Part shown: positions 49,528-58,022 of the stretch, piece by piece
Position numbering within the stretch: the stretch's first letter is position 1
How the letters are laid out: every line of letters starts with the position of its first letter
From: Streptosporangium saharense
Lineage (GTDB): Bacteria > Actinomycetota > Actinomycetes > Streptosporangiales > Streptosporangiaceae
NCBI RefSeq assembly: GCF_014203715.1
Contig: NZ_JACHJP010000013.1
Coordinates: 124,001-188,000 of the forward strand
Reading direction: 5' to 3'
Length of the DNA: 64,000 nucleotides
Position numbers and translations under genes: made by a program
The notes under the pieces: model-generated
Told to the model about the DNA's origin: nothing
What the model saw: the letters and a program-made list of their open reading frames with translations, nothing else
Database searches by the model: none

Positions 49528-50253
49528 TCACGCGGCCTGCGGAACGAGCGCCTCGACTTCTTCCAACCGCAGGTCGTAGTCCTCGGCGACGTCGTGTCTG
49601 TCCTCTCCGGCCCGCAGGCGGCTGAGGACGTCGTTCAGCCGGACTCCTCTGCGTGCCAGGGTCGGCTGCCCTCCGTTGATCCAGGGATCGACAGTCACGT
49701 CGACCTCCTCGTATCCGGGAAGGCGGATCACCTTCATCCAGCCGTCCTGATAGGAGACGCGCCGCAGGTAGTCGCGCACGACCGGACGGAAGACCTGCTG
49801 GCCGCTGCGGATGACGACCAGCCCGTCCACGGCCTCTCTCTCCGCCGGGTCGCTGGTGCGTTCCTTGAAGTCCCAGAGGACCTCGGCGCCGTCGGTCATC
49901 AGCCGCTCGCTCGCCAGGGCCTGCTCCAGACCGATGTTGTCCTCCAGCCATCGGATCGCGGGCCTGATGCGCTGCATCGGGACCTTGGCGCTGCGGAAGG
50001 CGGCCAGCATGTAGGCCTCGGCCAGGCCGACGAACGGCACGGTCGAGCCATGTGTGCCCGCCGTGGTCACCATCGGCTCGGCCACCACGAACGGCGCGTC
50101 GATGCGCTTGTAGGCGTATCCGACGGCCCAGTTGCGGAAGGTCTGGCGGGGGACACCGATCAGGTCGGCCGCCTGACTTTTGGAATAAATGGGGGTGACA
50201 TAACGAAAGTCGTTGATCAGTCCGGCTTTCTCGCCGGTGTTCGGCATCGTCAC
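49528..50253 (-). CDS. Antitoxin with MerR-like HTH and DUF433 domain
   Basis: A 241-residue protein. The N-terminal segment YSKSQAADLIGVPRQTFRNWA (about residues 23-43) is a DNA-binding helix-turn-helix. A middle domain (RIRPAIRWLEDNIG, then VIRSGQQVF) follows, and the C-terminal DUF433 domain contains PTLARRGVRLNDVLSRLRAGED and VAEDYDLRLEEVEALV. This domain order marks antitoxins paired with PIN-like toxins. GTG 50253 follows GGAGGT. Likely self-repressing. Confidence 0.82.
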   Translation of the reverse strand: MTMPNTGEKAGLINDFRYVTPIYSKSQAADLIGVPRQTFRNWAVGYAYKRIDAPFVVAEPMVTTAGTHGSTVPFVGLAEAYMLAAFRSAKVPMQRIRPAIRWLEDNIGLEQALASERLMTDGAEVLWDFKERTSDPAEREAVDGLVVIRSGQQVFRPVVRDYLRRVSYQDGWMKVIRLPGYEEVDVTVDPWINGGQPTLARRGVRLNDVLSRLRAGEDRHDVAEDYDLRLEEVEALVPQAA

Positions 50254-50354: not shown

Positions 50355-51113
50355 TCAGATACCGCGGGTGAGGGCTCGGGAGATTCCGAGGGCGGCGGCT
50401 TTTACTGCTGGGGCCAGGCGGGTTGGTTGGAAGCGGGCCAGGGGGACGGAGACCGAGAGGGCCGCGATCGCCATGCCGTCGCCGAAGACCGGGGCCGCGA
50501 TGCAGGCGCCGCCGAGTTGTGACTCCTCACGTTCGTAGGCCAGGCCCGCCGCCTGGATCTGGCCGAGCGTCTCCTCAAGGCGTTTGGGGTCCACGATGGA
50601 GTGCGGGGTCAGGCGGCGCAGCGGGCGGCCGAGGACCTCCTCGATGAGCGTGGGCCCCGAGTAGGCGAGCAGTGCCTTGCCGATGCCGGTGCAGGTCAGC
50701 GGGAGCCGGCCGCCGACGCGGGAGGGCAGGGCGAAGGCCTCCTGGCCACGGATCTTCTCCACGTAGACCACGTCGAGGCCGTCGCGCACCCCCAGGTGCA
50801 CGGTCTCGTGGGTGGCCTCGTACAGGTCGTGCATGAACGGCAGGGCGGCGTGTCTCAGGTCGCGTTCGAGGGGCACGATGCAACCGAGTTCGAACAGGCG
50901 TCGGCCGAGGTAGTAGCCGTCGTCGCGGCGGGCGACAGCCCCGATCTCGGTCAGCTCGGTGAGCAGCCGGAAGGCGGTGGTCTTGGGAAGGTGGCAGCGC
51001 GCCGCGACCTCGGTGAGCCGCAGCGGGCCTCCCGTGGGGCGGAACGCGTCGAGCACGAGCCAGGACTTCTCCAGCACCGAGAGGCGGTCGGGGTTCCGTT
51101 TCACGGAACTCAT
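50355..51113 (-). CDS. IclR family regulator of the 3-hydroxyanthranilate operon
   Basis: A 252-residue IclR protein: winged helix (SVLEKSWLVLDAF through GAVARRDDGYYLG, about residues 8-68) and the IclR effector domain (THETVHLGVRDGLDVVYVEKI, LPLTCTGIGKALLA, GGACIAAPVFG). Divergent from the degradation operon with 73 bases between, so it should control it; the effector may be 3-hydroxyanthranilate or a pathway intermediate. ATG 51113 chosen; GTG 51104 possible. Confidence 0.9.
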   Translation of the reverse strand: MSSVKRNPDRLSVLEKSWLVLDAFRPTGGPLRLTEVAARCHLPKTTAFRLLTELTEIGAVARRDDGYYLGRRLFELGCIVPLERDLRHAALPFMHDLYEATHETVHLGVRDGLDVVYVEKIRGQEAFALPSRVGGRLPLTCTGIGKALLAYSGPTLIEEVLGRPLRRLTPHSIVDPKRLEETLGQIQAAGLAYEREESQLGGACIAAPVFGDGMAIAALSVSVPLARFQPTRLAPAVKAAALGISRALTRGI

Positions 51114-51155
51114 TGTTGCCCAAGTGGGACGGCCAGGCCTATACCCATACGTAGT

Positions 51156-51186: not shown

Positions 51187-52641
51187 TTGTCTGACCAGGT
51201 GACCCACTTCATCGGTGGGGTACAGGTCGCCGAGGGGGCGACGTTCGCGACACACGACCCCGTGACCGGCGGGGTGGTCCGCCTGGTCCACGAGGCGGAC
51301 CGGGCCGTCGTTGACAAGGCGGTCGCCGCCGCCCGCGCGGCCCAGCCGGGTTGGGCGGCGCTGCCGGTCGCCGAGCGGGCCGGGTGGATGCGCCGCCTCG
51401 CCGACGCGATCGAGGCCAGGTTCGAGGAACTGGTCGCCGCGGAGATCGCGGACACCGGTAAGTCGATCACGCAGACCCGCACGCTGGACATCCCGCGTGG
51501 CGCGGCCAACTTCCGGTCCTTCGCCGAGATCGCCGCCCAGCGGCCCGACGAGGCGTTCCACCTGAAGGACGTGCTGAGCTACACCGTGCGCAGGCCGCTC
51601 GGGGTGGTCGCGGTGATCGTGCCGTGGAACCTGCCGTTCCTGCTGGCGACCTGGAAGATCGGCCCCGCGCTCGTCGCAGGCAACGCCATCGTGGTCAAGC
51701 CGTCGGAGCACACGCCGGGTTCGATGGCCGTGCTCGCCGACATCGCCGCGGAGATCGGGCTGCCGCCCGGCGTCCTGAACGTGGTGCACGGCCTCGGCGG
51801 CGGCTCGACCGGCCAGTTCCTGGTGGAGCACCCCGGGGTGGACGCGGTCACCTTCACCGGCGAGAGCCGTACCGGATCGACGATCATGAAAGGTGTGGCG
51901 GACCGGGTGAAGCCGGTCTCGTTCGAGCTCGGGGGCAAGAACGCCGGGCTGGTCTTCGCGGACGCCGATCTGGACGTGGCCGTCGAGGGCAGTGTGCGTT
52001 CGGTGTTCACCAACGGCGGGCAGGTCTGCCTGTGCACCGAGCGGCTCTACGTCGAGCGGCCCGTTTTCGAGGAGTTCGTCACGCGCCTGGCCAAGCGGGC
52101 CGGGGAACTGCGGTTCGGGCGTCCCGAGGACGAGGACACCACGATGATGCCGATGATCTCCGCCGAGCACCGGGACAAGGTGCTGTCGTACTACCGGCTC
52201 GCCGAGCAGGAGGGCGCCGAGTTCAGGGCGGGAGGCGGCGTGCCGAGCTTCGGCGACGAGCGGGACGGGGGATACTACGTCGAACCGACCGTGCTGACCG
52301 GTCTGCCGCCGGACTCCAGGGTGAACCGGGAGGAGATCTTCGGTCCGGTCTGTCACGTCGCGCCGTTCGACACCGAGGCCGAGGCGGTCGCGCTGGCCAA
52401 CGACAGCGAGTACGGCCTGGCCGCGACGGTGTGGACCTCACGGCTCAGCCGGGCGCACCGGGTCGCCCAGTCTCTTGAGGCGGGCCTGGTGTGGGTCAAC
52501 ACGTGGTACCTCCGCGACCTGCGCACCCCGTTCGGCGGGGTGAAGCTGTCGGGCATCGGCAGGGAGGGCGGCACCGACTCCCTGGACTTCTACTCGGAAC
52601 CCACCACGATCACGATCAAGCTGGAGCCGGAACATGAGTGA
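51187..52641 (+). CDS. nbaE: 2-aminomuconic 6-semialdehyde dehydrogenase
   Basis: A 484-residue NAD-dependent aldehyde dehydrogenase. It has [33 protein letters not shown], the general base Glu in FELGGKN and the catalytic Cys in NGGQVCLC. It is of the 2-hydroxymuconic/2-aminomuconic semialdehyde dehydrogenase type. Because the operon also holds a 3-hydroxyanthranilate dioxygenase, ACMSD and a 2-aminomuconate deaminase, the aminomuconic substrate is the likely one. TTG start with GAGGAGAAG upstream. First gene of the operon; its end overlaps the next gene by 8 bases. Confidence 0.9.
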
Positions 52642-53431
52642 GTGGAGCGAGGCGACCGACGCGCTCGCCGAGGCGGCCGACCAACTGCTCAGCGCGGCGC
52701 GCGACGGCAAGCCCTGTCCCCCGGTACGGCAGACGCTGCCGGGCGGGACGGCGGAGGTCGGCTACGCCGTACAGGAGATCAACACCAGGAGAGCGCTGCA
52801 CGAGGGGCGGCGGCTGGTTGGGCGGAAGATCGGCCTGACCTCGACCGTGGTGCAGCGGCAGCTCGGCGTTGACCAGCCCGACTTCGGGATGCTCTTCGCC
52901 GACATGGCCTGCCTGGACGGGCTGCCGGTGCCCGCCTCCCGGTTCCTGCAGCCGAAGGCCGAGGCGGAGATCGCGCTCGTCCTCAGGAGCGACCTGGTCG
53001 GCGGGCCCTTCACGGTCGCGGACGTCATCAGGGCCGTCGACTTCGTGCTCCCGGCCATCGAGATCGTGGACAGCCGTATCGCCGGGTGGGACATCTCGCT
53101 CGTGGACACCATCGCCGACAACGCCTCAAGCGGGGCGTTCGTGCTCGGCAATACCCCGGTTGACCTGCGCGGTCTCGATCTGCGGCTGGCCGGGATGACC
53201 ATGACCAGGAACGGCCAGGAGGCCTCGACCGGCGCGGGCGCCGCCTGCCTGGGGCACCCGCTCAACGCCGCCGTCTGGCTGGCCAACGCGCTGGGCGGCA
53301 AGGACTTCCCGCTGCTGGCCGGAGACGTGGTGCTGACCGGCGCGCTCGGGCCGATGGTGCCCGTGGAGGCCGGGGACGTGTTCGAGGCGCACATCGACGG
53401 CGTCGGCTCGGTCAGGGCGGTGTTCTCATGA
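52634..53431 (+). CDS. nbaH: 2-keto-4-pentenoate hydratase
   Basis: A 265-residue FAH-superfamily enzyme that hydrates 2-hydroxypenta-2,4-dienoate to 4-hydroxy-2-oxovalerate. Metal-site blocks are [25 protein letters not shown] and [12 protein letters not shown]. It is a paralogue of the decarboxylase later in the operon. The assignment between the two rests on order and on its closer likeness to the DmpE group. Overlaps both neighbours by a few bases. Confidence 0.86.
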
Positions 53432-54360
53432 CGGCGACGAAGACGGGCAGGACCGTGAAGATCGCGATCATCGGGTCGGGCAACATCGGCACCGACCTGA
53501 TGTTCAAGGCGCTGCTGTCCAAGAGGGTCGAGGTCGTCGCCATGGCGGGCATCGACCCCGACTCCGACGGCCTGGCCCGTGCCCGGCGGCGCGGGGTGGC
53601 CACCACCCACGAGGGCGTCGAGGGCCTGGTCAAGCTGCCCGGCTTCGACGAGGTGGACATCGTCCTGGACGCGACCTCGGCGGGGGCGCACCTGCACAAC
53701 GACCGGGTGCTGCGCGAGCACGGCAAGCGGGTCATCGACCTGACCCCGGCCGCGGTCGGGCCGTACGTGGTGCCCCCGGTGAACCTGGAGGCCCATCTCG
53801 GCGAGCGCAACCTCAACATGGTCACCTGCGGCGGCCAGGCGACGATCCCGATCGTGGCGGCGGTGGCCTCGCGGGTCCCCGTGAGATACGCCGAGATCGT
53901 CGCCTCGATCGCCTCCAGGTCGGCGGGTCCCGGCACCCGGGCCAACATCGACGAGTTCACCGAGACGACCTCACGGGCGATCGAGGAGGTCGGCGGGGCC
54001 GAGCGGGGCAAGGCGATCATCATCCTCAACCCGGCGGAGCCGCCGTTGATCATGCGGGACACGGTCTACTGCCTCGTCGACGACTGTGACGAGGCCGAGG
54101 TGGCGGCAGCCGTACAGGAAATGGTGGAGCGGGTTGCCGGGTATGTGCCGGGATATCGGCTCAAGCAGGACGTGCAGTTCGACCGTCTTCCGGCCGGGGA
54201 GCCGCTGCCGACCGGGGAGCGTACCGGTGGCGTCAAGGTGAGTGTCTTCCTCGAAGTCGAGGGGGCCGCCCACTACCTGCCCGCCTACGCGGGCAATCTG
54301 GACATCATGACCTCGGCCGCGTTGCGCACCGCCGAGCGGCTGGCGGAGGTGGGCGCGTGA
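53428..54360 (+). CDS. nbaJ: Acetaldehyde dehydrogenase (acetylating)
   Basis: A 310-residue DmpF/BphJ-type enzyme converting acetaldehyde, NAD and CoA to acetyl-CoA. N-terminal [19 protein letters not shown] binds NAD; the catalytic Cys134 is in [10 protein letters not shown]. It forms a channelled complex with the aldolase that follows, and the genes overlap (GTGA). Confidence 0.94.
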
Positions 54361-55370
54361 GGCTCTACGTCCAGGACGTGACGCTGCGGGACGGCATGCA
54401 CGCCATCAGGCACCGCTACAGCACGGCGCAGGCGGCCCAGATCGCCGCCGCGCTGGACGCCGCGGGCGTGGCGGCCATCGAGATCGCCCACGGCGACGGT
54501 CTCGCCGGGGGTAGTTTCAACTACGGCGCGGGCGCGCACACCGACGACGAGTGGATCGAGGCTGTCGCGGGTGCCGTACGGCAGGCGAAGCTGACGACGC
54601 TGCTGCTGCCCGGCATCGGCACCATCCACGACCTCAGGCGGGCGCACGCGCTCGGCGTGACCTCGGTCAGGATCGCCACGCACTGCACCGAGGCCGACAT
54701 CTCCGCCCAGCACATCGCCACCGCCCGCGAACTGGGCATGGACGTGGCCGGGTTCCTGATGATGTCCCACATGGCCCCGCCGGACGAACTGGCCAGACAG
54801 GCCAAACTCATGGAGTCGTACGGCGCGCACTGCGTCTACGTGACCGACTCCGGTGGGCGGCTGACCATGGACGGGGTGCGCGAGCGGGTCAGGGCCTACC
54901 GGGAGGTGCTCGACGAGGCGACGGAGATCGGCGTCCACGCCCACCACAACCTGGGCCTGGGCGTGGCCAACTCGGTAGTCGCCGTGGAGAACGGCACGGT
55001 CAGGGTCGACGCCTCGCTGGCCGGGATGGGCGCGGGGGCGGGCAACTGCCCGATCGAGGTGTTCGTCGCGGTGGCCGACCTGATGGGCTGGAAGCACGGC
55101 TGTGACATCAACGCCCTGATGGACGCGGCCGACGACCTGATCAGGCCGTTGCAGGACCGTCCGGTGCGGGTGGACAGGGAGACGCTGACGCTCGGCTACG
55201 CCGGGGTCTACTCCAGCTTCCTGCGCCACGCGGAGGCGGCCTCGGCGCGCTACGGGGTCGACACCCGGGCCATCCTGACCGAGGCGGGCAGGCGGCGGAT
55301 GGTCGGCGGCCAGGAGGACATGATCGTGGACATCGCGCTGGACCTGGCGCGGGCGAGGGGGGACGCGTGA
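54357..55370 (+). CDS. nbaI: 4-hydroxy-2-oxovalerate aldolase
   Basis: A 337-residue class II aldolase (DmpG/BphI) splitting 4-hydroxy-2-oxovalerate into pyruvate and acetaldehyde. The N-terminal [11 protein letters not shown] holds a metal-site Asp and the catalytic His; [15 protein letters not shown] provides the two metal-binding histidines; the C-terminal communication domain that contacts the dehydrogenase is present. GTG start overlapping the previous gene. Confidence 0.95.
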
Positions 55371-56131
55371 CCGACATCCACAAGCTCGCCGCGGTGCTCG
55401 ACGAGGCCGCCCGTACGGCTCGCGCCGTGCCGCAGCCCGAGCAGGACTACGACGTGGCGACCGCCTACCGGGTGCAGGAGGAGCTGCTGCGGCTGCGCCT
55501 GGACCGGGGGGACCGGCTGGCCGGGGTGAAGCTGGGCTTCACCAGCGAGGGCAAGCGCCGCCAGATGGGGGTGCACGACGTGATCTTCGGCAGGGTGCCG
55601 GAGTCGTCGGCGGTCCCGGACGGCTCTTATGCCGATATTTCGGCTTATATCCACCCGCGTATCGAGCCGGAGGTCGTCTACCTGGTCGGCAGGCGCATCG
55701 AGACCGTCGCCGACGCCCTCGCCCCCGGCGCCGTGGTCGCCGCCGCGCCCGGCATCGAGATCATCGACTCCCGCTACGAGAACTTCCGCTTCTCGCTGCC
55801 CGACGTGATCGCCGACAACACCTCGGCGGCGGGCTACGTCGTGGGCCCGTGGCGGCCCTACGACCCGGCGCTGTGGAACCTCGGGGTGCTGCTGGAGATC
55901 GACGGCAGGGTCGTCCAGGCCGGATCGACCGGCGCCATCCTGGGGGACCCGCGCAGGGCCGTGGTCGAGGCCGCGCGGCTGGCCGTACAGGCTGGGGTGG
56001 TCATCGAACCGGGCTGGATCCTGCTCGCGGGCGCCGCCACCCCGGCGGAGCCGCTGCCCGCGGGGGCACACGTCAGGGTCGAGGCCCAGCACCTGGGCTC
56101 GGTCTCCTTCACCGCGGGACGGGCCTCATGA
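55367..56131 (+). CDS. nbaG: 2-oxo-3-hexenedioate decarboxylase
   Basis: A 254-residue FAH-superfamily enzyme (DmpH group) that decarboxylates 4-oxalocrotonate to 2-hydroxypenta-2,4-dienoate. Blocks: [37 protein letters not shown] and [28 protein letters not shown] overlap with the aldolase gene and ATGA-type overlap with the next. Confidence 0.87.
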
Positions 56132-56535
56132 TTGTTGACGGAAAGGCCACGCCGCGCGGCAGGTTCCCGCACGTCAGGCGGGCCGGGAACCTCATCTACG
56201 TGTCCGGGACCAGCTCCCGCAGGCCGGACAACACGATCGCCGGGGCGCGGGCCGACGCGTTCGGCACGGTCAGCCTCGACATCGCCGAGCAGACCAGGGC
56301 GGTGATCGAGAACATCCGCGACATCCTTCACGCCGTCGGGGCGGACCTATCCGACCTGGTGCAGATCACCACCTACCTGGTGAACATGAACGACTTCGGC
56401 GGCTACAACGCGGTCTACGCGGAGTACTTCGACGAGACCGGCCCGACCAGGACGACGGTCGCGGTCCACCAGCTACCCCATCCGCATCTGTTGATCGAGA
56501 TCCAGGCAGTCGCCTACAAGGAGGAGAGCCAGTGA
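56128..56535 (+). CDS. nbaF: 2-aminomuconate deaminase, RidA family
   Basis: A 135-residue YjgF/RidA protein. Family residues include [13 protein letters not shown], the Arg in [13 protein letters not shown] and the C-terminal [14 protein letters not shown]. In the nba and amn pathways this family converts 2-aminomuconate to 4-oxalocrotonate, and the place in the operon supports the same role. ATG 56128 overlaps the previous stop. Confidence 0.9.
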
Positions 56536-57047
56536 TTCCCCCCATCGACTTCACCAAGTGGATCGACGAGCACGCCCATCTGCTCAAGCCGCCGGTGGGC
56601 AACAAGGTGATCTTCGAGGGGGCCAACGACCTCATCGTCATGGTCGTCGGCGGCCCGAACGCGCGGACCGACTTCCACGTCGATCCGTACGAGGAACTGT
56701 TCTACCAAATCCGCGGCAACATGCACATCAACGTCATGACCGAGGACGGCCCGGAGACCGTGCACGTCAAGGAGGGCCAGATGTGGCTGCTCCCGCCGAA
56801 CCTGCCGCACTCGCCGCAGCGCCCCGAGGAGGGTTCGGTCGGCTTCCTGGTCGAGCGGATCAGGCCGGAGGGCGTGCTGGAGAAGTTCCGGTGGTACTGC
56901 CAGGACTGCGACGCCGTCGTGCACGAGGTCGAGCTCCAGGTCCGTGACATCGTGGCCGACCTGCCGCCGATCTTCCAGGCGTTCTACGACGACGAGAAGG
57001 CCAGGACCTGCGACGACTGCGGCGCTCTCCACCCGGGCAAGGGATAG
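56532..57047 (+). CDS. nbaC: 3-hydroxyanthranilate 3,4-dioxygenase
   Basis: A 171-residue cupin opening 3-hydroxyanthranilate to 2-amino-3-carboxymuconate 6-semialdehyde (ACMS). All key residues known from the Ralstonia enzyme are present at a constant shift: iron ligands His49, Glu55 and His93; substrate-binding Arg45, Arg97 and Glu108; and a rubredoxin-like second iron site Cys123, Cys126, Cys160, Cys163. GTG 56532 overlaps the previous stop. It is the first enzyme of the pathway though seventh in the operon. Confidence 0.97.
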
Positions 57048-57050
57048 TCG

Positions 57051-58022
57051 TTGATCATCGACGTCCACACCCACCACGTCCCCCGGGGCTGGCCGGACCT
57101 GGGGTGGCCCGAGGCGCCGAGGCTGCGGGTCGAGTCCGAGCGGGAGGCCATGATCCTGCTCGGCGACCGGGAGTTCCGCAGGATCCAGGACGACTGCTGG
57201 AACCCGGACGTCCGTCTCGACCGGATGGACGCGGACGGGATCGACGTCCAGGTCGTCTCGCCGACCCCGGTCTTCTTCTCCTACGAGAGGCCTGCGGCGC
57301 AGGCGGCCGGGGTGGCGAGGGTCTTCAACGACCTGGCCCTGGAGATCTGCGCCTCGGAGCGGCTCGTGCCGTTCTGCCAGGTGCCGCTGCAGGACCCCGA
57401 CCTGGCCTGCGCGGAGCTCGACCGGTGCCTGGCGGCCGGACACGCGGGCGTCGAGATCGGCAACCACGTCGGTGACCTCGACCTCGACGACGCGGGGATC
57501 GTGCAGTTCCTCCAGCACTGCGCGGCAGTCGGCGCGCCCGTCTTCGTCCATCCGTGGGACATGGCGGACAGCCCCCGGCTGCGGCGCTGGATGGCCCAGT
57601 GGCTGGTCGGCATGCCCGCGGAGACCCACCTGTCGGTGCTCGCCCTGATCCTGGGCGGCGTCTTCGACAAGGTTCCCGAGAGCCTGCGGATCTGCTTCGC
57701 GCACGGCGGCGGCTCGTTCGCCTTCTGGCTCGGCCGGTTCGAGAACGCCTGGCACCGCCGCAACGACGTGGTCGGCACCTCGCTGCTGCCGCCCTCGGCC
57801 TATCTCGGGCGCTTCAGCGTGGACTCGGTGGTCTTCGACGAGCGGGCGCTGCGGCTGCTGGTGGACACCATGGGGGAGGAGCGGGTCATGCTCGGCTCCG
57901 ACTTCCCCTACCCGCTCGGCGAGACGCCGGTCGGCTCGCTGATCAGGGGCGCCGGGTTCCTGTCCGAGGAGTCTCGCGCCAAGCTGCTCGGCGGCAACGC
58001 CGCCCGTTTCCTCGGCATCTGA
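57051..58022 (+). CDS. nbaD: 2-amino-3-carboxymuconate-6-semialdehyde decarboxylase (ACMSD)
   Basis: A 323-residue amidohydrolase-fold, zinc-dependent, non-oxidative decarboxylase. The N-terminal metal pair is His6 and His8 (DVHTHH), a further His is in FVHPWDM, and the metal-binding Asp284 lies in GSDFPYP; AHGGGSFAFWLGR is typical of ACMSD. It removes CO2 from ACMS, diverting it from spontaneous closure to quinolinate. TTG start, three bases after the previous stop. Last gene of the operon. Confidence 0.95.
   Translation: MIIDVHTHHVPRGWPDLGWPEAPRLRVESEREAMILLGDREFRRIQDDCWNPDVRLDRMDADGIDVQVVSPTPVFFSYERPAAQAAGVARVFNDLALEICASERLVPFCQVPLQDPDLACAELDRCLAAGHAGVEIGNHVGDLDLDDAGIVQFLQHCAAVGAPVFVHPWDMADSPRLRRWMAQWLVGMPAETHLSVLALILGGVFDKVPESLRICFAHGGGSFAFWLGRFENAWHRRNDVVGTSLLPPSAYLGRFSVDSVVFDERALRLLVDTMGEERVMLGSDFPYPLGETPVGSLIRGAGFLSEESRAKLLGGNAARFLGI

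Follow-up and report, generated by a model that had tools for sequence, protein, structure and literature searches.

Eight co-directional genes at 51187–58022 of a 64,000-nucleotide stretch of the Streptosporangium saharense genome (contig NZ_JACHJP010000013.1, positions 124,001 to 188,000; this whole stretch is the window below) very probably form the lower half of a tryptophan catabolic pathway whose two halves are unlinked. The pathway would follow the 3-hydroxyanthranilate/2-aminomuconate meta-cleavage route, with its upper half encoded in the same cell and an IclR-type regulator controlling the lower half via a palindrome. We favor an unlinked tryptophan pathway because the upper genes were found elsewhere in the genome, on the contigs designated C1 and C2. 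The eight genes, taken from a list of open reading frames except for the deaminase start, which was read from the sequence, are given here with their predicted products:

51187..52641, plus strand: 2-aminomuconate 6-semialdehyde dehydrogenase (AMSDH); TTG start with AGGAGAAG immediately upstream
52634..53431, plus strand: 2-oxopent-4-enoate hydratase; 307 bits to 8ih6 chain A
53428..54360, plus strand: acetaldehyde dehydrogenase (acetylating; AcDH); 465 bits to TIGR03215, above cut-off
54357..55370, plus strand: 4-hydroxy-2-oxovalerate aldolase with a DmpG communication domain (PF07836); 561 bits to TIGR03217, above cut-off
55367..56131, plus strand: 4-oxalocrotonate (2-oxo-3-hexenedioate) decarboxylase; 236 bits to 8ih6 chain F, 134 bits to NahK
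56128..56535, plus strand: 2-aminomuconate deaminase of the RidA family; 188 bits to 6izh, next RidA protein 87 bits
56532..57047, plus strand: 3-hydroxyanthranilate 3,4-dioxygenase (3HAO), bacterial type, with a four-cysteine second metal site
57051..58022, plus strand: ACMSD; 343 bits to 2hbv, 259 bits to 4ign, next amidohydrolase 86

An earlier note on this DNA had described eight overlapping genes that cover every step of the pathway. The number stands, as do overlaps at six of the seven junctions (8, 4, 4, 4, 4 and 4 bp), but the remaining junction is a 3-bp gap. Coverage of every step is borne out at the level of prediction: each of the eight assignments has a profile or a solved relative behind it, and the two enzymes that fall under their NCBIfam cut-offs are yet nearest to the expected solved enzymes. 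Four of the predicted enzymes—3HAO, ACMSD, AMSDH, and the deaminase—are diagnostic, each separated by a wide score gap from the next enzyme class. For instance, the top PDB matches of AMSDH are all 2-aminomuconate 6-semialdehyde dehydrogenases (4u3w, 643 bits; 7bzv, 630; 4i1w, 619), with the next class at 391. The same protein exceeds the cut-off of NCBIfam TIGR03216, a model named for the closely related 2-hydroxymuconic semialdehyde dehydrogenase; the amino substrate is favored because the deaminase, ACMSD, and 3HAO genes adjoin. The 3HAO scores above the cut-offs of NF009763 and TIGR03037, matches 1yfu at 220 bits against 32 for other cupins, and shows H49, E55, H93, R45, R97, E108, C123, C126, C160, and C163, which we take to be metal and substrate residues, invariant across 12 sequences. 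The two FAA-hydrolase-fold genes could be split into decarboxylase and hydratase by their matches to opposite chains (F and A, respectively) of PDB 8ih6. As for ACMSD, 4ign is the human enzyme (as stated in a passage of PMC10143591).

Gene order is not pathway order, and the first enzyme is indeed encoded seventh, as the earlier note had it. That enzyme, 3HAO, would open the 3-hydroxyanthranilate ring; ACMSD would decarboxylate the ring-opened product, which AMSDH would then oxidize to 2-aminomuconate. Conversion to 4-oxalocrotonate by the deaminase would be followed by the decarboxylase and hydratase, yielding 4-hydroxy-2-oxovalerate, which the aldolase would split into pyruvate and acetaldehyde, the latter being turned into acetyl-CoA by AcDH. 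A DmpG communication domain normally pairs with an acylating dehydrogenase, here encoded in the adjoining gene. Should the eight genes be transcribed as an operon, flux into it would depend on a supply of 3-hydroxyanthranilate from an unlinked tryptophan dioxygenase (TDO; C2), a candidate formamidase, and kynurenine 3-monooxygenase (KMO) plus kynureninase (KynU; C1).

Whole-genome searches for TDO, kynureninase, KMO (E <= 1e-40), KynB-type formamidase, and FAD_binding_3 gave zero matches in the window, in agreement with the earlier claim that the upstream kynurenine genes are missing here. The companion claim, that 3-hydroxyanthranilate must come from elsewhere in the genome or from outside, is likewise upheld: profile and structure-relative searches found TDO, KMO, and kynureninase all present in the genome. 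Two kynureninases occur, scoring 379 and 270 bits (cut-off 246). The stronger, at C1:883634-884917, shares 4 bp with a downstream KMO whose best solved relative is 6fox, a kynurenine 3-monooxygenase, at 351 bits (best non-KMO, 73). Another 4-bp overlap joins this KMO to an alpha/beta hydrolase carrying an HGGFW stretch, completing a three-gene overlapping unit unlinked to the operon. The hydrolase is a candidate formamidase, assigned mainly from its position. A second KMO-like gene, 44% identical, lies at C6:142484, and two TDO-family genes lie on C2. The genome search that the earlier note had proposed for kynA, kynB, kynU, and KMO succeeded for TDO, kynU, and KMO, and for kynB returned one sub-threshold match, the C1 hydrolase being a positional candidate for the formamidase.

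The putative control elements lie at the divergent end of the operon:

50355..51104, minus strand: IclR-type regulator, divergent from the operon; IclR_C 143 bits, HTH_IclR 51 bits (Pfam)
51093..51109, unstranded: 17-bp perfect palindrome GTTCCGT-TTC-ACGGAAC, overlapping the regulator's start codon; candidate IclR operator
51116..51145, plus strand: candidate promoter TTGCCC-N18-TATACC, from the alignment of the divergent region

The IclR-type protein would most likely control both the operon and its own gene via the palindrome. Across an alignment of 15 rows, representing 11 distinct loci picked for a divergent IclR gene, the palindrome is kept in all 11 loci (nine exact, two with one mismatch). 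In the 8.5-Mb genome the exact palindrome occurs once, with one more place at one mismatch and none for a reversed-pattern control; the one-mismatch place, C2:934852, sits within a predicted reading frame. The regulator probably starts at a GTG at 51104, and possibly at an ATG at 51113. At 51104 each of the 11 distinct loci has GTG or, in L135 and L073, ATG; eight of them also carry the in-frame ATG three codons further upstream (absent from L069, L047, and L073), and in both one-mismatch loci the mismatch is the GTG-to-ATG change in the regulator's frame; the repeat therefore probably overlaps the start codon. Because the palindrome lies partly in coding sequence, part of its conservation could be that of the protein. 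All 15 aligned rows share an unchanged CTATACC block, and since a plain sigma-70 promoter and terminator scan found none, the candidate promoter is a suggestion only. The palindrome precedes the putative -35 element, a position that would suit an activator, with repression possible; IclR proteins are called repressors in a passage of PMC10470539.

Near-copies of the palindrome also occur at some kynureninase genes located away from the operon. Three distinct relatives (L048 of G071, L069 of G044, and L070 of G058) have a copy with one or two mismatches just upstream of such a gene (L048:8494, 9815, 9839; L069:13613; L070:6622). No near-copy precedes kynureninase in L038, L050, or L074, where that gene closely follows ACMSD, nor is there one in L118 or L135 despite a kynureninase set apart, and at kynureninase genes of loci without an IclR gene the palindrome appears only at five or more mismatches. 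Beside the regulator, a small gene on the minus strand (49528-50253) combines an HTH_66 domain with DUF433, presumably an antitoxin-like make-up.

How widely the pathway occurs was gauged in 120 genomes of the source family, Streptosporangiaceae. PF06052 has a match in 37 of these, above the cut-off in 32 and above 150 bits in 30; the last group is termed strong 3HAO, and both this 150-bit threshold and the 60% identity threshold for KMO were chosen after the scores had been seen. These 30, from 19 genera, are also exactly the genomes that have an ACMSD at least 50% identical. KMO at least 60% identical is found in 22 of the 120, all among those 30 and in 14 of the 19 genera (Fisher p 9e-18 by genome and 9e-11 by genus, shared ancestry uncorrected). 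A second set comprised named loci from a public species collection, biased to near relatives because, of at least 587 loci encoding a relative of the dioxygenase, just the best 80 were counted; some strains are in both sets (e.g., G070, G044, G058, and G095), and one species is there twice among the 80. These best 80 are all actinobacterial (Nonomuraea, Planobispora, Micromonospora, Streptomyces, and others), and 51 have all eight genes together within the fetched stretch. The operon is common in soil actinobacteria, not rare, and the grouping of its genes is not chance. Genes for kynU and KMO are both present in 54 of the 80 loci and TDO in 49, and the exact order TDO-kynU-KMO-AMSDH-hydratase-AcDH-aldolase-decarboxylase-deaminase-3HAO-ACMSD recurs in 33, with 5 more adding a terminal hydrolase.

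These distributions bear on whether the operon might mainly serve 3-hydroxyanthranilate that is exogenous or made by other means—anthranilate 3-hydroxylation, 2-nitrobenzoate, or antibiotics derived from 3-hydroxyanthranilate—leaving the tryptophan route secondary, a reading that we judge unlikely, if the most serious of the alternatives. Its appeal is that this genome keeps the upper half apart from the operon, that Geobacillus degrades anthranilate via 3-hydroxyanthranilate (according to a passage of PMC4539516), that 2-nitrobenzoate degradation converges on the same enzymes (likewise in part of PMC10143591), and that eight of the 30 strong-3HAO relatives are without the close KMO class. Set against this are the presence of kynU and KMO near the same genes in those 54 named loci and the confinement of the close KMO class to strong-3HAO genomes (22 of 22).

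Several observations do weigh against assigning the operon to tryptophan catabolism as proposed here. The eight KMO-less genomes (G061, G005, G034, G058, G025, G009, G071, and G103) include two, G005 and G071, of the source genus Streptosporangium, and such relatives may feed the pathway otherwise; some exceptions (e.g., G058) may be misses because scoring covered just the 14 best first-look candidates of each genome. Weaker KMO-like proteins, 36–48% identical, occur in genomes without strong 3HAO (G015, G066, G067, G075, G076, G079, G088, and G100), so that KMO, broadly taken, is not limited to genomes with 3HAO; G071 has one as well. Within the genome itself, the hydratase scores 338 bits with its NCBIfam model (cut-off 350) and the decarboxylase 181 bits with TIGR03218 (cut-off 351), while both TDOs fall under the 391-bit cut-off of TIGR03036, at 293 and 312. 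The only KynB-type formamidase match is sub-threshold (45 bits, cut-off 223), and the solved relatives of the C1 hydrolase are esterases or lipases only. Finally, within 20 kb of the genome's kynU, KMO, and TDO genes the palindrome appears only at three or four mismatches, a level that gives several per stretch; one four-mismatch copy lies 84 bp before the TDO gene termed C2:1544k. A regulon shared with the genome's own kyn genes, with only such 3-4-mismatch copies nearby, was not supported.

Two further readings concern what the dioxygenase is for. It could feed quinolinate and NAD synthesis instead of catabolism, and 3HAO does begin a tryptophan-to-quinolinate route in some bacteria, to go by a reference title cited in PMC10143591. 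We hold this to be very improbable: ACMSD and six further drain enzymes in the operon would divert the intermediate from quinolinate, and ACMSD accompanies strong 3HAO in all 30 family genomes. The other reading, a 2-aminophenol or catechol meta-cleavage locus such as an ARO microcompartment satellite, draws on the six of eight enzymes common to the 2-aminophenol pathway. The ARO satellite loci of Actinobacteria are defined by such genes beside an IclR-type regulator, as described in part of PMC10470539, and share AMSDH, deaminase, decarboxylase, hydratase, aldolase, AcDH, and IclR genes with the window. Here, however, the ring-cleaving enzyme is predicted to be 3HAO, not 2-aminophenol 1,6-dioxygenase, ACMSD is an extra, and the genome has no match (0) to the microcompartment shell domain PF00936, PF03319 not being searched for. 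On the missing PF00936 match and the different dioxygenase an ARO satellite was rejected, and the 2-aminophenol/ARO reading, for which we see scarcely any probability, is largely refuted.

Lower-half tryptophan catabolism, the reading that we prefer, has a counterpart in the nba-type pathway for 2-nitrobenzoate, tryptophan, and 3-hydroxyanthranilate, reportedly described from Pseudomonas fluorescens KU-7 and Burkholderia by Muraki in 2003 and by Colabroy and Begley in 2005. The nba gene set, which we take to comprise the same eight reactions, had been equated with the window operon in the earlier note; 3HAO, ACMSD, AMSDH, the deaminase, and the four lower enzymes are all present, the comparison with nba drawing on review passages. 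The window's 3HAO, ACMSD, and AMSDH are nearest to solved enzymes named for these activities, and the operon differs from nba in its actinobacterial sequences and divergent IclR-type regulator. The TDO-kynU-KMO-linked operons of other actinobacteria (e.g., Micromonospora, Herbidospora, and Acrocarpospora) share the eight genes and their order; there the upper half is contiguous, whereas the source genome carries it on C1 and C2 and has the IclR-type gene linked to the operon in its place. In passages of the respective sources, a 2-aminophenol route runs through the same lower enzymes (PMC4539516), tryptophan and 2-nitrobenzoate degradation meet at 3HAO, ACMSD, and AMSDH (PMC10143591), and 11 actinobacterial genomes are counted as having four or more of five kynurenine-pathway steps (PMC4217691). 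Given these 2-aminophenol, Geobacillus, 3HAO/ACMSD/AMSDH, and kynurenine-survey descriptions, the operon belongs to an already known type. Among the literature matches listed, no paper dealt with its actinobacterial form, which is no proof of absence as subscription papers were mostly outside coverage.

Variants occur among the relatives. Second 3HAO copies in L037, L045, and L066 (G099, G068, and G031) have few or no other lower-pathway genes and adjoin kynureninase, that of L066 adjoining KMO and TDO as well; these may be 3HAO loci of a biosynthetic or quinolinate type. A second operon clade (L061, L063, L064, L065, L067, L068, and L071) has ACMSD 50–55% and AMSDH 59–63% identical; AcDH and aldolase are placed after ACMSD in L064 and L067, and three of the seven genomes (G061, G005, and G034) are without the close KMO class. 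The operons in L041, L049, and L072 are without adjoining decarboxylase, aldolase, and AcDH genes, and either the lower steps are encoded elsewhere or the pathway ends early.

The entry enzyme has a distinctive feature. The C2:1544k TDO (L057:6406-7323, minus strand) is mostly 52–59% identical to the TDOs of the linked cassettes, and its closest relatives, at 66 and 71%, adjoin KMO in G004 and G044. The other gene, C2:766k, encodes a canonical TDO (2nw7, 251 bits) and was rejected as the pathway's likeliest TDO, being about 30–35% identical to most cassette TDOs; it may contribute still, and the cassette TDOs of G116 and G092 are nearer to it than to C2:1544k. With residue numbering that we assume to place the distal heme histidine, the substrate arginine, and the axial histidine correctly, the distal position in the cassette class is occupied by Ser in 50 of 56 distinct sequences, by Thr in 5 (that of the source genome among them), and by Gly in 1, the count leaving out matches of 200 residues or less (one partial, L128). 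Substrate arginine and axial histidine are retained in all 60 rows of this class, and the threonine of GTGGS is replaced by Ser in 47 of the 56. Five rows nearer to C2:766k (that gene twice, L188, L060, and L062) keep the distal histidine; since L060 and L062, from G116 and G092, hold cassette TDOs, the His-less class is not universal.

The predicted model of the source genome's cassette-type TDO (mean pLDDT 75.7, pTM 0.72) has the bacterial TDO fold, with 2nox as best match (TM 0.71/0.81) and the laboratory mutants H55S and H55A in the match list. The class resembles a naturally occurring H55S-type TDO whose pocket is IDO-like, a comparison based on the role that we assume for IDO Ser167. Compared with Xanthomonas campestris TDO (2nw7) and its H55S mutant (3e08), the source genome's enzyme shares the predicted fold, the substrate arginine, and the axial histidine; the distal histidine is naturally Thr here and Ser in most relatives, whereas H55S is a laboratory mutant. 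Passages of PMC11904535 name His55 and CmTDO His72 as distal-histidine positions, call CmTDO His72 a known catalytic facilitator, and have the 2-oxindole-forming relative MarE keeping its distal histidine. No TDO class without this residue appeared among the literature matches listed, again with subscription papers mostly outside coverage and no proof of absence. In G033 and G083 the cassette TDO would have to do the job because it is the sole PF03301 match. Taken jointly, these findings suggest a proposition on which we are evenly divided: pathway-bearing actinobacteria would mostly start with a TDO class in which the distal histidine is replaced by Ser or Thr, a working entry enzyme and the sole one in some genomes, and in one branch an IclR-type protein would switch the lower operon by way of a rare 17-bp palindrome, which also stands before detached kynureninase genes.

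The palindrome offers a ready test of regulation, and the TDO variant provides a natural enzyme set for probing the need for the distal histidine. More broadly, the complete gene set for degrading tryptophan and 3-hydroxyanthranilate, best known from pseudomonads and Burkholderia, is a common, modular capacity of soil actinobacteria. This capacity matters because 3-hydroxyanthranilate, as passages in the literature describe, is also a precursor that feeds actinobacterial antibiotics.

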